NCBI RefSeq assembly: GCF_002941025.1
Contig: NZ_PTJS01000001.1
Span: forward strand, 5,461,472 to 5,525,471
DNA from: Streptomyces sp. QL37
GTDB lineage: Bacteria > Actinomycetota > Actinomycetes > Streptomycetales > Streptomycetaceae
Direction of reading: 5' to 3'
Length of the DNA: 64,000 nt
A program made the translations under genes and the position numbers. Every line of letters starts with the position of its first letter. Within the stretch, counting starts at the first letter, position 1. The notes under the pieces were generated by a model. That model was given only the letters and a program-made list of their open reading frames with translations. It made no database searches and was not told the DNA's origin. This document shows positions 2,353 to 55,256 of this stretch, one piece after another.

Positions 2353-2997
2353 ATGAGGGGCGAACCCAGTTGCCCGAAGTGCGGTGGCCGGGTCAGGGCG
2401 CCCGGCCTTTTCGCCGATGCCTGGCAGTGCTCCGCACACGGCCAGGTGCACCCGATGCAGCCGGTGGTCCCGCCCAGCGTCGAGGCGCTGGGTGTGGTGG
2501 TGCACCGGGCGCAGGTGCCGGTGTGGATGCCCTGGCCGCTCCCGGTGGGCTGGCTGTTCACGGGCGCGGCGTACGCGGGCGACGACCGCAGCGGCGGCCG
2601 GGCCACCGCCGTCGCGTGCTCGGGCCCCGGCCCCCTCGGAGGCATGGGGGAGCTGCTGCTCATCGCCGAGGAGCTCGGCGTCGGGCTCGGTGCGCGTTAC
2701 GCGGGTATCGACGGCCCCGACCCCGGCTCCGGACTGGCCGTCGAGGCCGCCCCCGACGCCAAGGTGCTCGCGGCGGGACGCCCCGCCCCGCTCTGGCACG
2801 TCAGGAACGCGCCCGCCGACCGTGCGGTCTTCGCGGGCGAGGCCCGTGGCCTGTGGCTCTGGGCGATCGTCTGGCCCGAACAGTCCGGGCTGCTGATGTA
2901 CGACGAACTGGTGCTGACCGACCTGCGCGACGCCGGAGGGGAAGTGGACCTCCTGCCGTGCGGGGCGCTCACCCCGCGGCTGCTCACACCGCCCTGA
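2353..2997 (+). CDS. DUF6758-type conserved protein with N-terminal zinc ribbon
   Basis: A 214-residue cytosolic protein conserved in Streptomyces, without a known reaction. Near its N-terminus CPKCGGR and a later CSAHG (Cys at about residues 7, 10 and 28, plus His) form a probable zinc ribbon. The rest is a mixed alpha/beta domain rich in Gly and Ala with LWLWAIVWPEQSG late in the sequence. The ATG at 2353 begins MRGEPSCPK; a TTG at 2344 is only 3 nt behind GGGGAGGA and is less likely. It precedes the PHP gene by about 90 bp in the same direction. The family name is from memory of similar proteins. Confidence 0.65.
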   Translation: MRGEPSCPKCGGRVRAPGLFADAWQCSAHGQVHPMQPVVPPSVEALGVVVHRAQVPVWMPWPLPVGWLFTGAAYAGDDRSGGRATAVACSGPGPLGGMGELLLIAEELGVGLGARYAGIDGPDPGSGLAVEAAPDAKVLAAGRPAPLWHVRNAPADRAVFAGEARGLWLWAIVWPEQSGLLMYDELVLTDLRDAGGEVDLLPCGALTPRLLTPP

Positions 2998-3038
2998 CCC
3001 GGCGGCGGGAAGGGGCCGGACGGGGCACACCCGGCGGT

Positions 3039-3044
3039 TATCCT
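3039..3044 (+). promoter_or_regulatory. Possible -10 box before the PHP gene
   Basis: TATCCT matches TAnnnT about 42 nt before the GTG start at 3086. The matching -35 is weak, so this is a low-confidence call. Confidence 0.25.
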
Positions 3045-3085
3045 TGAGCGTCCCCTGTCCGCCCGCCAGCACTGGAGTACGCGTC

Positions 3086-3952
3086 GTGCGCATCGATCTG
3101 CACACCCACTCCACCGCCTCGGACGGCACGGACACCCCTGCCGAGCTGGTGGCCAACGCGGCGGCGGCCGGCCTCGACGTCGTCGCGCTGACCGACCACG
3201 ACACGGTGGGAGGCCACGCGGAGGCGCTGGCCGCCCTCCCCGAAGGGCTCACGCTCGTCACCGGCGCCGAACTCTCCTGCCGCGTCGACGGCATCGGCCT
3301 GCACATGCTGGCCTACCTCTTCGACCCGGCCGAGCCCGAGCTCTCCCGTGAGCGCGAGCTCGTCCGGGACGACCGGGTACCGCGGGCGCAGGCCATGGTG
3401 CGCAAGCTCCAGGAGCTGGGCGTCCCGGTCACCTGGGAGCAGGTCGCGCGGATCGCCGGGGACGGCTCGGTCGGCCGCCCGCACGTCGCGACCGCGCTCG
3501 TGGAGCTCGGCGTCGTCGACACCGTCTCCGACGCCTTCACCTCGGCCTGGCTCGGCAACGGCGGACGGGCGTACGCCGGAAAGCACGAGCTCGACCCGTT
3601 CGACGCGATCCGGCTGGTCAAAGCTGCGGGCGGCGTCACCGTCTTCGCCCACCCGCTCGCCGTCAAGCGCGGCGAGGTGGTCCCGGAAGCCGTGATCGCG
3701 AAGCTGGCCGAGGCCGGGCTCGACGGCATCGAGGTCGACCACATGGACCACGACGAGCCCACCAGGGCCCGGCTGCGGGGGCTCGCCGCCGATCTGGGGC
3801 TGCTGCCCACCGGGTCCAGCGACTACCACGGCACCCGTAAGACCGTCCGGCTCGGGGAGTACACCACCGACCCCGAGATCTACGGCGAGATCACCCGGCG
3901 CGCCACAGGAGCGTTCCCCGTGCCGGGCGCCGGCGGACCGGTCCCCGCGTAA
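3086..3952 (+). CDS. PHP-domain metal-dependent phosphoesterase
   Basis: A 288-residue PHP-superfamily hydrolase, likely acting on phosphate esters such as nucleoside 3',5'-bisphosphates or oligonucleotides. The metal ligands are visible in order: DLHTHSTASDGT at the N-terminus, LTDHDTV near residue 45, the Glu of TGAELSC, the His of FAHPLA, the HMDHDEPTR segment, and a final GSSDYHG. The GTG at 3086 is preceded by GGAG at 8 nt spacing and puts the first metal motif at residue 4, as in the family. Length and motif order fit the TrpH/YciV-type subfamily. It is cytosolic and lies upstream of a MarC-family gene in the same direction. The exact substrate is not determinable. Confidence 0.88.
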   Translation: MRIDLHTHSTASDGTDTPAELVANAAAAGLDVVALTDHDTVGGHAEALAALPEGLTLVTGAELSCRVDGIGLHMLAYLFDPAEPELSRERELVRDDRVPRAQAMVRKLQELGVPVTWEQVARIAGDGSVGRPHVATALVELGVVDTVSDAFTSAWLGNGGRAYAGKHELDPFDAIRLVKAAGGVTVFAHPLAVKRGEVVPEAVIAKLAEAGLDGIEVDHMDHDEPTRARLRGLAADLGLLPTGSSDYHGTRKTVRLGEYTTDPEIYGEITRRATGAFPVPGAGGPVPA

Positions 3953-51747: not shown

Positions 51748-51853
51748 CGTCACCGATTCTGTACCGGGTCTGTACCGGCTTGGCTCGATGTCGTGGTTTG
51801 CGGTTAGCCTGACGCGACGCATTCACCTTCGGGATGGGGGACGGTCGTTACGC

Positions 51854-52486
51854 ATGGCCAGGGAATTTCAGCGCGGCCACAAGGCCAAGATCAGTGATCT
51901 CACGTCAGGGACGGATCTGTACGTAGGTGTGCAGATCGCGGGACCGGGCCTGACGTTCGACATCAGCTGCTTCGGTCTCGACGCCAATGAGCAGCTCTCC
52001 GACGACCGGTATTTCATCTTCTTCAATCAGCCGAAATCGCCGGAGGAGTCCATTCAGCTTCTCGGCGCCCAGGCCGGTGACACCGAATCGTTCCGCGTCA
52101 CCCTCGACCGCATTCCGGCGAACATCCACAAGCTGTCCTTCACCGCGACCCTCGACGGTGCCGGACAGATGTCGCAGGTCGGCCCCGGATACATCCGGAT
52201 CGTCGCGGGCGGCGAGGAAGTGGTGAAGTACGCCTTCACCGGCTCGGAGTTCACCACCGAGCGTGCGGTCATGCTCGGCGACTTCTACCTCAAGGACGTC
52301 TGGCGGTTCGCCGCGGTCGGCCAGGGTTTCGACGGCGGACTCGACGCGCTGCTCAAGAACTTCGGCGGAGAGGTCGCCGAGGAGGCCCCCGCCGCGCCGC
52401 CCCAGGGTGTTCCCGCGGGAGGCGCAGGCCTCCAGGCGGCCCTGCAGCCCTACAAGGAAACGGCCACCGGGCCCGTTTCCTTGTAG
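51854..52486 (+). CDS. TerD-domain protein, 3' part displaced by inverted repeat
   Basis: A 210-residue ORF with a TerD domain at about residues 1-180: MAREFQRGHKAKISDLTSG, GPGLTFDISCFGLDANEQLS, DDRYFIFFNQPKSPE, GDTESFRVTLDRIP and KDVWRFAAVGQGFDGG. TerD proteins bind calcium and act in stress or tellurite resistance complexes. After EEAPAAPP the ORF shares 74 bp with the linker of the next gene, then hits a fold-back and stops at 52484. In related genomes, as I recall, TerD and AIM24 are one polypeptide, so this is probably the N-terminal half of a broken or mis-assembled gene. Confidence 0.75.
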   Translation: MAREFQRGHKAKISDLTSGTDLYVGVQIAGPGLTFDISCFGLDANEQLSDDRYFIFFNQPKSPEESIQLLGAQAGDTESFRVTLDRIPANIHKLSFTATLDGAGQMSQVGPGYIRIVAGGEEVVKYAFTGSEFTTERAVMLGDFYLKDVWRFAAVGQGFDGGLDALLKNFGGEVAEEAPAAPPQGVPAGGAGLQAALQPYKETATGPVSL

Positions 52487-52537
52487 GGCTGCAGGGCCGC
52501 CTGGAGGCCTGCGCCTCCCGCGGGAACACCCTGGGGC
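52399..52537. repeat. 65-bp inverted repeat with 9-nt spacer
   Basis: 52399-52463 is the exact reverse complement of 52473-52537, separated by CCACCGGGC. The left arm plus spacer (74 bp) recurs as a direct copy at 53034-53107, where it encodes the junction between the linker and the AIM24 domain. Confidence 0.95.
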
Positions 52538-52597
52538 ACGCCTTGCGGCATACCGGGCTGCATGCCCGGGGGCTGCTGCCCGTACGGCGCGGGCGCT

Positions 52598-52775
52598 TGC
52601 GGTGCGGGTGCCATCGGGGCCGCGAGGGGCGGGGGGCGGGGCACCCTTGCCCCGGGGCCCTCCCCACTGGGGGGGGTGGGGGGGGCGCCCCCCCCACCCC
52701 CCCCAGTGGGGAGGGCCCCGGGGCAAGGGTGCCCCGCCCCCCGCCCCTCGCGGCCCCGATGGCACCCGCACCGCA
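52598..52775. repeat. 178-bp perfect palindrome
   Basis: The two 89-nt arms are exactly complementary with no spacer; the centre is between 52686 and 52687. The middle reads ACT, eight G, T, eight G, CG, eight C, A, eight C, AGT. The arms carry the coding sequence of the Pro/Ala/Gln linker on opposite strands. Confidence 0.95.
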
Positions 52776-53718
52776 GCAGCAGCCGATGCACGCCGCGCCG
52801 ACCCTCGCGGCCCCGATGGCACCCGCACCGCAAGCGCCCGCACCGCAAGCGCCCGCGCCGTACGGGCAGCCGCCCCAGCCGCCGCAGTTCGGACAGGTCC
52901 CGGGGCAGAGTGCTCCGCCCGCCGCCCCGCCGTACGGGCAGCAGCCCCCGGTCGCACCGCAGTTCGGCCAGCAGGCTCCGGGGCCGTTCGGCCAGCAGCC
53001 CCCGGGCATGCAGCCCGGTATGCCGCAAGGCGTGCCCCAGGGTGTTCCCGCGGGAGGCGCAGGCCTCCAGGCGGCCCTGCAGCCCTACAAGGAAACGGCC
53101 ACCGGGCAGCGCTGGACCTCGCAGAACCAGCAGCTCATGCGCGTCGACCTCACGATGGGCGGCACACCGGTGCTGGCCCGCCAGGGCAGCATGGTGATGT
53201 ATCAGGGCAAGGTCGACTTCGGCTACAAGGGAGCCGGCTTCGCGGGCCGCATGGTCGGCAACGCGACGGGCCAGGAGATGCAGCTGATGCGCTGCAGCGG
53301 CCGTGGCCAGGTCTTCCTCGCCGAGGAAGGATCGCATCTGCATCCGATCGAGCTGCAGGGCGACGGCATCTGCGTCTCCGCCGAGAGCGTGCTCGCCTTC
53401 GACGAGTCCCTGCAGTACGAGGTCCGCAGGATCGAGGGACACGGGATTCCCGGCGGCGCCCTGTTCACCATGCAGTTCCAGGGCACCGGCACCGTCGTCG
53501 TAAAGACCCACGGTGTGCCGGTCGTCCTGCCGGTCACCCCGACCACCTTCGCCGACTGCAACGCCGTGGTGGCCTGGTCGTCGGCGTCCCAGGTGATCAT
53601 CTCCAGTCAGGTCCGGCTGCGCCGCAACGCGTATCCGGGGCACAGCGGGGAGACCGTGAACCTCCAGTTCCGGGGAGCACCCGGCAACTTCATCGTCGTC
53701 CAGCCCTACGAGGTCTGA
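52759..53718 (+). CDS. AIM24-domain protein, C-terminal part of the TerD-AIM24 gene
   Basis: A 319-residue piece starting MAPAPQQQPMHAAP. About 110 residues are a Pro/Gln/Ala linker with YGQ and PQFGQ repeats, then VPAGGAGLQAALQPYKE leads to an AIM24-type beta-rich domain (QRWTSQNQQLMRVDLTMGG, VLARQGSMVMYQGKVDFGY, MRCSGRGQVFLAE, GAPGNFIVVQPYEV). The frame is open upstream to 52543 through the palindrome, so the start at 52759 is arbitrary. Most likely this is the C-terminal half of the TerD fusion. AIM24 proteins are double-psi-like beta proteins of unclear role. Two AIM24 paralogs follow. Confidence 0.7.
   Translation: MAPAPQQQPMHAAPTLAAPMAPAPQAPAPQAPAPYGQPPQPPQFGQVPGQSAPPAAPPYGQQPPVAPQFGQQAPGPFGQQPPGMQPGMPQGVPQGVPAGGAGLQAALQPYKETATGQRWTSQNQQLMRVDLTMGGTPVLARQGSMVMYQGKVDFGYKGAGFAGRMVGNATGQEMQLMRCSGRGQVFLAEEGSHLHPIELQGDGICVSAESVLAFDESLQYEVRRIEGHGIPGGALFTMQFQGTGTVVVKTHGVPVVLPVTPTTFADCNAVVAWSSASQVIISSQVRLRRNAYPGHSGETVNLQFRGAPGNFIVVQPYEV
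53034..53107 (+). repeat. Third (direct) copy of the linker segment
   Basis: These 74 bp match 52399-52472 exactly and include the 65-bp arm that is inverted at 52473-52537. Confidence 0.95.
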
Positions 53719-53729
53719 GGGAGCCCGTC

Positions 53730-54410
53730 ATGAACCAGCAGCTCGCGGGCTTCGCCCCGACCCCCGTCACGGCCCGCATGGAGAACCACGGCCGTACGAT
53801 GCTCAAGGTCGCCATGGCCACCGGCCAGGACCTCTACGCGCGCACCGGCTCGATGGTGGCCTACGAGGGCTTCATCCAGTACGAACCCAACCCGCCGGCC
53901 GTCCGCCAGATCGCGTCCCAGTGGATCACCGGTGAGGGCGCACCCCTGATGAAGTGCGCCGGTGACGGACTGCTCTACCTCGCCGACTACGGCGCCGACG
54001 TGGTCGTCATCAATCTCGACAACGACTCGCTCTCGGTCAACGGCACCAACCTCCTGGCCTTCGACGGTCACCTCTCCTGGGGTGTGGAGCGGGTCAAGGG
54101 GCTGGCCAAGTTCGCCGGCCAGGGCCTGTGGAACGTGGGGATCCAGGGCACGGGATGGGTCGCCATCACCTCGCGCGGCACACCGATCGTGGTCGACTGC
54201 GGGCGCGGCGAGGACGAGACGTTCGTCGACCCCGACGCCCTCGTCGCGTGGTCCCCGAACCTCAAGGTGAAGGGCAAGCGCAGCTTCAAGGCGAGCTCGC
54301 TCATCGGGCGGGGCAGCGGAGAGGCGTACCAGATGGCCTTCTCCGGCCAGGGCATCGTCGTCGTCCAGCCGAGCGAGGACAGTACCGACCGCCTGCGGAT
54401 CCGGAACTGA
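53730..54410 (+). CDS. AIM24 family protein (second unit)
   Basis: A 226-residue AIM24-type protein beginning MNQQLAGFAPTPVTARMENH. It has the repeated beta-strand elements of the family: MLKVAMATGQDLYARTGSMV, PLMKCAGDGLLYLADYGADV, LLAFDGHLSWGVERV and YQMAFSGQGIVVVQPSE. No membrane segment is seen. GAGGGAG lies 6 nt before ATG 53730, 11 nt after the previous stop, so it is co-transcribed with the first AIM24 unit. Similarity to its neighbours indicates tandem duplication. Function unknown; TerD association suggests stress or membrane work. Confidence 0.82.
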   Translation: MNQQLAGFAPTPVTARMENHGRTMLKVAMATGQDLYARTGSMVAYEGFIQYEPNPPAVRQIASQWITGEGAPLMKCAGDGLLYLADYGADVVVINLDNDSLSVNGTNLLAFDGHLSWGVERVKGLAKFAGQGLWNVGIQGTGWVAITSRGTPIVVDCGRGEDETFVDPDALVAWSPNLKVKGKRSFKASSLIGRGSGEAYQMAFSGQGIVVVQPSEDSTDRLRIRN

Positions 54411-54428
54411 GCGGGGGAGGAACACATC

Positions 54429-55184
54429 ATGCAGAGTCCGCTTTTCAACTACACGGAACAGCAGTCGCAGGACCGCTACACGGTCCAGAACCCGCAGCTC
54501 CTGCGGGTCGCGCTGACCGGCCACGACGACGTCCTCGCCCGTAAGGGCGCCATGGTCGCCTACCAGGGGCTCATGGAGTTCGACGGTGAGTACCAGTCGC
54601 ACAGCCAGCGCCGCGCCCGCAGGAACACGGGTGAGGGCCTCGACCTCATGCGCTGCTCCGGCCAGGGAACGGTCTACCTGGCCAACCTCGCGCAGTACAT
54701 CCATGTGGTCGACGTCGACCACGAGGGCATGACGGTCGACAGCGCCTACGTGCTGGCGCTGGACTCCTCGCTGCACACCGAGGTCATCGCGGTGGACAGC
54801 CAGTACGGGATCTCCGGCACCGGCAAGTACCAGCTCAACATCTCCGGGAGCGGCAAGGTCGCCCTGATGACCTCCGGCCAGCCGCTGATGATGCAGGTCA
54901 CCCCCGACAAGTACGTCAATGCCGACGCCGACGCGATCGTCGCCTGGTCGAGCGGTCTGCGGGTGCAGATGCAGGCCCAGACGCATTCCTCGGGAGTCTT
55001 CCGGCGCCGTGGCAACACGGGGGAGGGCTGGGAGCTGAGCTTCCTGGGCCAGGGTTTCGCCCTCGTCCAGCCGAGTGAGGTGCTGCCGCCGCAGAACGCC
55101 CAGATCGGCCAGGGGGCCGCGGCGCAGTTCGGTATGGGGCAGCAGGGCTCGCACGGACAGAACCAGAACAACTCCTGGAACTGA
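54429..55184 (+). CDS. AIM24 family protein (third unit)
   Basis: A 251-residue AIM24-type protein beginning MQSPLFNYTEQQSQDRYTVQ, with QLLRVALTGHDDVLARKGAMVAYQ near residue 25, LMRCSGQGTVYLANLAQYIH near 75 and WELSFLGQGFALVQPSEV near 205. The C-terminal tail is Gln/Gly/Asn-rich. It lies 18 nt after the second unit with a GGGGGAGGA ribosome site. It closes the three-unit operon, followed by a perfect terminator. Role unknown. Confidence 0.82.
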   Translation: MQSPLFNYTEQQSQDRYTVQNPQLLRVALTGHDDVLARKGAMVAYQGLMEFDGEYQSHSQRRARRNTGEGLDLMRCSGQGTVYLANLAQYIHVVDVDHEGMTVDSAYVLALDSSLHTEVIAVDSQYGISGTGKYQLNISGSGKVALMTSGQPLMMQVTPDKYVNADADAIVAWSSGLRVQMQAQTHSSGVFRRRGNTGEGWELSFLGQGFALVQPSEVLPPQNAQIGQGAAAQFGMGQQGSHGQNQNNSWN

Positions 55185-55206: not shown

Positions 55207-55256
55207 ACAACGGGTGAGGGGCGGTTTCCCCCGGGAAACCGCCCCTCACCCGTTGT
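55207..55256. terminator. Strong bidirectional terminator
   Basis: A 24-bp perfect stem (55207-55230 with 55233-55256) has a 2-nt nominal loop, between the convergent AIM24 and NUDIX genes. Confidence 0.85.

Follow-up and report, generated by a model that had tools for sequence, protein, structure and literature searches.

The stretch of DNA analyzed here, termed the window (64,000 nucleotides, G000:C1:5461472-5525471), derives, judging by its matches, from a Streptomyces chromosome. It belongs to an 8,772,908-base contig, one of the five that make up the assembly, and carries, at positions 51854-53718, a gene of the TerD-linker-AIM24 type (PF02342 and PF01987), which is followed by two more AIM24 genes. 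The three genes with an AIM24 domain, the TerD fusion and the two single-domain genes, lie in a row (51854-55184), and directly after the third there is a hairpin with 24-nt arms and a 2-nt spacer (55207-55256) that resembles an ordinary terminator. The linker of such fusion genes is usually GC-rich and built of short near-repeats (Pro/Ala/Gln-rich). In the window, the TerD domain lies upstream and the AIM24 domain downstream, as expected for the type, but the two do not share one continuous reading frame: they are found in separate ORFs at 51788-52486 and 52543-53718, the second of which starts at a TTG within an inverted copy of the linker. The features of the locus are the following:

51854-52398, forward strand: TerD-domain half (PF02342, E 1.4e-36); its ORF is also readable from 51788, and it is colinear with the relative G029 to 52407
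52399-52407, forward strand: 9-nt overlap GCCCCAGGG, connecting the TerD flank with a copy of the linker's far end (the G029 match stops at 52407 and the direct repeat starts at 52399)
52399-52472, forward strand: first forward copy, comprising the last 74 nt of the linker and 100% identical to 53034-53107
52464-52472, no strand: 9-nt spacer of the first fold-back, from the inverted-repeat search
52473-52686, reverse strand: inverted linker copy, with pieces skipped at short direct repeats, from the repeat search and an exact-block parse
52598-52775, no strand: perfect palindrome of two 89-nt arms without spacer, centred at 52686/52687, from the inverted-repeat search
52629-52744 (limits set by eye), no strand: palindrome core of G/C runs (GGGGGGGGTGGGGGGGG and its mirror), which does not resemble linker sequence and is similar to text at loci L214, L229 and L238
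52687-53107, forward strand: third linker copy, in which about 115 nt of the linker of the relative have no counterpart
53113-53718, forward strand: AIM24-domain half (PF01987, E 3.8e-25), now in the frame 52543-53718

The original prediction held that the linker is present forward, inverted and forward again, and that the gene is thereby cut into two ORFs. Both statements were borne out, the former by a repeat search that recovers the 74-nt direct repeat (52399-52472 and 53034-53107, 100% identity) together with two pairs of inverted arms. The first pair (52399-52463 and 52473-52537) comprises 65 nt around a 9-nt spacer and the second (52598-52686 and 52687-52775) 89 nt with no spacer, both at 100% identity, in agreement with the arms and spacers described beforehand. 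When the inverted copy is paired with the third over a greater length (52473-52600 and 52971-53098), identity falls to 95%, because the inverted copy skips pieces. These missing pieces, also predicted to lie at short direct repeats, amount to 72 nt and 126 nt in a minimal exact-block parse, where the overlaps are 11 and 4 nt; alternative parses through longer linker repeats are possible. The prediction can be refined in that the third copy is incomplete as well, since about 115 nt of the G029 linker (G029:C1:886602-886717) are absent from the window. No natural stem was seen at the 52463/52473 turn.

A comparison with relatives, proposed earlier as a check, reveals that the gene is typically unbroken. 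Among the 80 named loci, which are the best of 575 confirmed loci and were fetched with the AIM24 segment, 59 encode TerD, linker and AIM24 in one frame with no internal stop or N, and the G029 ortholog is continuous too. In 17 of the 80 no TerD is present, the contig breaking off within the linker at 195-430 nt upstream of the AIM24 segment, and in the remaining four the linker is damaged by a frame shift (L043), a direct duplication and an N gap (L048), a 51-nt inverted copy (L059) or an N gap (L073), so that N gaps affect 2 of the 80. The 29 whole-genome loci, some of which are the same records as named loci, include 23 intact genes, one out of frame (L105), four contigs ending in the linker and one locus without TerD (L097). 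The longest exact inverted repeat in the continuous linkers is at most 16 nt in the named loci and at most 14 nt in the whole-genome loci. A chance repeat within a repetitive linker was rejected on these grounds, given that the similarly repetitive continuous linkers of relatives have no long inverted repeat. The same comparison bears on the idea that the palindrome is a functional element within the gene, such as a terminator, a recombination site or a phase-variable switch. The inverted repeat is indeed very strong, but its absence from the continuous linkers of relatives, and the fact that its outer arms are pieces of coding linker, make such a role improbable in the extreme.

The recurrence of such structures was assessed in a sample of the same genome consisting of the window, 40 stretches from its surroundings, 40 more distributed along the contig, and contig C2 (82 stretches, 1,665,851 bases), and in 40 control stretches (800,000 bases) from five other Streptomyces genomes. 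The former sample is non-random, with 864 kb around the window, and the control stretches occupy different map positions. At a minimum arm length of 40 nt and a maximum spacer of 1,000, 58 perfect inverted repeats were found in 18 of the 82 stretches, many of them representing several pairs per site and 20 having a spacer of up to 100, against none in the 800 kb (0 of 40 stretches) of the controls. The fold-back in the window is thus beyond chance, and its kind recurs at unrelated loci of this assembly. When arms of at least 34 nt with spacers of up to 60 are considered, the counts are 19 and zero, the longest control arm being 28 nt and the longest in 109 homologous loci (517 kb) 30 nt (L045); the controls do contain short palindromes of terminator size (arms of 20-28 nt, five in 800 kb). 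Arms in the genome under study extend up to 748 nt (L129), and neighbouring forward-reverse-forward pairs like those of the window are seen at L129, L133 and L157. Perfect fold-backs include L129:8830-10759, L133:3568-4936, L157:16845-18941, L219:6162-6579, L229:7437-7858 and L238:1430-1879, besides others. A scan for imperfect copies (80-nt arms, at least 75% identity, spacer up to 60) returned 20 centres in this genome and none in the controls. Seventeen of these match at 80 of 80 positions, and the remaining three (window 52467, L138 and L220) have perfect arms that are shorter than 80 or separated by a wider spacer. Within the limits of that scan no decayed fold-back copy was seen, which counts against a long-acting process, since such a process should leave decayed copies.

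Three other fold-back sites have orthologs in G029, the closest relative compared; these are continuous, as is the orthologous site of the window. L157 follows G029 to 70908, runs back over 604 nt of left flank, continues with 403 nt of right flank inverted and resumes at 70838, with about 70 nt missing. L222 runs forward to 278413, back over 340 nt, through 98 nt of the right side inverted and about 110 nt without match, and resumes at 278573, with about 160 nt missing. L131 runs forward to 700264, back over about 300 nt and through about 145 nt without match, and resumes at 700255 with 0 nt missing. In the window, the match to G029 extends on the TerD side as far as 52407 and starts again on the AIM24 side at 52761, the missing sequence being the roughly 115 nt of linker noted above. 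L129 has only weak matches in G029, the best being 68% over 323 nt of a 3,001-nt query. At all three sites with orthologs (L157, L222 and L131) the first turn coincides with the outer end of a hairpin that occurs naturally in G029; the stems measure 11, 9 and 13 nt and the loops 3, 47 and 16, and the spacers in the genome under study are 3, 44 and 13. By comparison, only 0.68% of positions in 200 kb of G029 come as close as 1 nt to the outer end of a stem of 9 nt or more. None of the three resume points (70838, 278573 and 700255) is at a stem of at least 6 nt. The missing pieces are not uniformly hard: taken with 20 nt of flank on either side, their GC content is extreme at the window and at L157 (0.81 in both, a value reached by 1% and 3% of random stretches) but ordinary at L222 (0.71), and unusually strong folding is seen at L157 only.

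A further peculiarity is the text that fills some of these structures. Besides the core of the palindrome in the window, which holds GGGGGGGGTGGGGGGGG and its mirror, a G15 run and a C15 run form the centre of a fold-back at L229, about 150 nt of L214 abound in C runs and G runs interspersed with other bases lie farther along, and L238 presents a stretch that, judged by eye, turns increasingly to G in one direction and is mostly mirrored exactly in the other arm. The sample of this genome contains 27 runs of G or C of at least 9, L214 and L238 together accounting for 18, while the controls, a sample about half as large, contain 2. Degenerate C/G-run stretches resembling failing base calls stand in assembled contigs (L214:2140-2310 and 2968-3120; L238:1821-1915). 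Base calls that fail towards G are known from two-colour Illumina chemistry, and the G-run text probably derives from reads of this kind. A base-by-base degradation of the expected linker was considered for the core in the window, but the comparison was made by eye and is not firm. A 35-nt probe from the palindrome core, allowing up to three mismatches, found only the core itself and its mirror image in the genome, which gives no support to a derivation of the core from a mobile or repeated palindromic element.

Taken together, the recurrence of fold-backs in this assembly, their absence from the controls, the continuous genes of relatives, the sequence missing with respect to G029 and the G-run text indicate, at the level of sequence comparison, that the forward-reverse-forward repeat is very probably an artefact of genome assembly and not a chromosomal rearrangement, and that the organism most likely carries the usual continuous Streptomyces TerD-linker-AIM24 gene. 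The locus resembles the Streptomyces fusion genes (PF02342 and PF01987) in domain order, flanks and linker vocabulary, and departs from them in that its own linker is replaced by forward-reverse-forward text and the gene is read as two ORFs. We envisage that a coverage hole would have arisen in the GC-rich, repetitive linker, where reads presumably failed, and that the hole would have been closed with sequence from the flanks, partly in the wrong orientation. The joins would be held by short false overlaps at direct repeats, hairpin stems and G/C runs, measuring 9 nt to TerD, 11 and 4 nt at the skips of the minimal parse and 9-13 nt for the stems at other sites, and they may have been written by a gap-closing step that accepts short overlaps. 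Several points count against an artefact: the assembly is otherwise good, with one contig of 8.77 Mb and a rating of 100% complete, the resume points are not at a stem, no stem stands at 52463/52473 and the missing pieces are unevenly hard. Long perfect inverted repeats have also been reported in complete bacterial genomes, 'although rare', in a passage of PMC13155455, the authors of which warn, in the same context of counting such repeats, that mis-assembly can affect the count.

Within the artefact interpretation, and as a part of its probability, the fold-backs might have been physical chimeric molecules, formed in vitro when 3' ends snapped back in the course of whole-genome amplification or of end-repair for the library, and the assembler would have followed these molecules where coverage was missing. 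The verdict on the locus would be the same and only the step would differ. This variant is a possibility that we hold to be less likely than joins made by the assembly process. It accounts for first turns at natural hairpin stems in three of the three testable sites. According to passages of PMC1855051, an inversion accompanied by an intervening deletion is the predominant form of MDA chimera (406 of 475, 85%), while a passage of PMC8458033 describes single-stranded fragments that self-anneal at short reverse-complementary stretches and yield inverted chimeras. The MDA chimeras and the FFPE-type chimeric reads, as far as those passages describe them, share with our sites the inverted joins near the source, the short complementary junctions and the intervening deletions, but they are chimeric reads, whereas here we deal with an assembled chromosome that shows G-run text and skips at direct repeats. 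On the other hand, PMC1855051 disfavours, in the part considered here, hairpin self-priming as a major route. Skips at direct repeats are more natural for false overlaps, and the noise-like G runs of L238 and of the window have an exact mirror image in the other arm, as if one read set had been written twice, although this last point is not decisive, because the difference would be masked in an assembly graph in which both strands are merged.

The original prediction had left the choice between double template switching and mis-assembly open. The recurrence, the G-run text and the propensity of the linker to break assemblies favour the latter, and the real, very fresh rearrangement that it also entertained found no support. 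Quasi-palindrome and template-switch mutations in vivo are known to generate a forward-reverse-forward layout, and it is in this layout that the window resembles them. Two recent template switches that cut the gene in two would also fit the perfect arms and the short overlaps at the joins, and the hairpin-primed turns at other sites would suit snap-back in vivo equally. Unlike such mutations, the structure in the window recurs across the assembly, has no decayed copies among those scanned and contains a noise-like core. A rearrangement in vivo would need many recent events in one genome and none in the control samples. It would also have to create G-degenerate text without a second genomic source, as judged from the probe in the window and the similar text at other sites; the probe did not reveal a genomic template for every inserted segment, although an ancestral stretch that has since been lost is possible. 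Moreover, the genome encodes SbcD, two loci, with open frames of 423 and 398 aa, exceeding the family cut-off, and the loss of SbcCD as a cause of tolerated palindromes is not supported by this search on SbcD. The SbcCD complex of E. coli has been described, in a passage of PMC6265447, to remove hairpins and cruciforms in vivo. We thus regard a real, fresh rearrangement of this gene as very improbable. The broader proposition, that the strain truly makes fold-back palindromes by replication snap-back at natural hairpins and has accumulated many fresh and perfect inverted duplications despite SbcD, with the TerD-AIM24 gene as one victim, appears just as doubtful.

The artefact interpretation has consequences beyond this locus. 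The assembly should be flagged, as 18 of the 82 stretches of a non-random sample carry fold-back text, and the other split genes and giant palindromes of this genome should not be trusted unchecked. Furthermore, Streptomyces assemblies break recurrently at the TerD-AIM24 linker. That this linker repeatedly defeats them is seen in the contig ends (17 of 80), in the damaged linkers (4 of 80) and in truncated TerD entries: a search with the truncated TerD protein, a query the length of which favours fragments, gave 283 matches, and among the 120 listed, 89 (counted by eye) are named 'partial', which fits the many 'TerD family protein, partial' entries. The truncated TerD protein of the window is itself the representative of a cluster of three members, the sources of which are hidden, so that copies of the record and an independent assembly are indistinguishable; the 60 relatives compared in the search for an independent copy are of the same genus or more distant. 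When residues 1-120 of the second ORF served as query, only four full-length TerD-AIM24 proteins were found among the 7,988 scored candidates sharing most words. In the literature, our searches found nothing on TerD with AIM24 in Streptomyces, the single match concerning Psychrobacter, and nothing on GC-rich assembly gaps of Streptomyces with hairpins and Illumina.

Some database proteins also look like products of assembly errors in the TerD-AIM24 linker (P0008, P0006 and P0054). In a comparison, on one strand, of 106 protein tails with antisense 7-mers of 79 named loci, P0008, from Streptomyces sp. gb1(2016), gave a run of nine hits to antisense TerD, its tail being antisense TerD. Eight other tails (P0011, P0014, P0054, P0069, P0080, P0088, P0089 and P0107) gave one or two antisense hits each, which are taken as chance. 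In P0080, the single case checked, seven residues correspond to the antisense strand of a region (L011:4844-4864) that lies a long way downstream of the AIM24 segment. The terminal residues are LSLIHI in P0006 and IGRAHV in P0054, which we take to be the translations of the Nextera and the TruSeq adapter, respectively. An independent case at the same spot is provided by L059 (Streptomyces sp. ms191), which has an inverted 51-nt copy of the linker end (2024-2074 and 2448-2498) plus a short duplication. In the one-contig relative G012, the best TerD and AIM24 matches are megabases apart (G012:C1:8848520-8849051 and G012:C1:1673677-1674478), and this split may reflect either a rearrangement or a mis-join with its break in the TerD-AIM24 linker.
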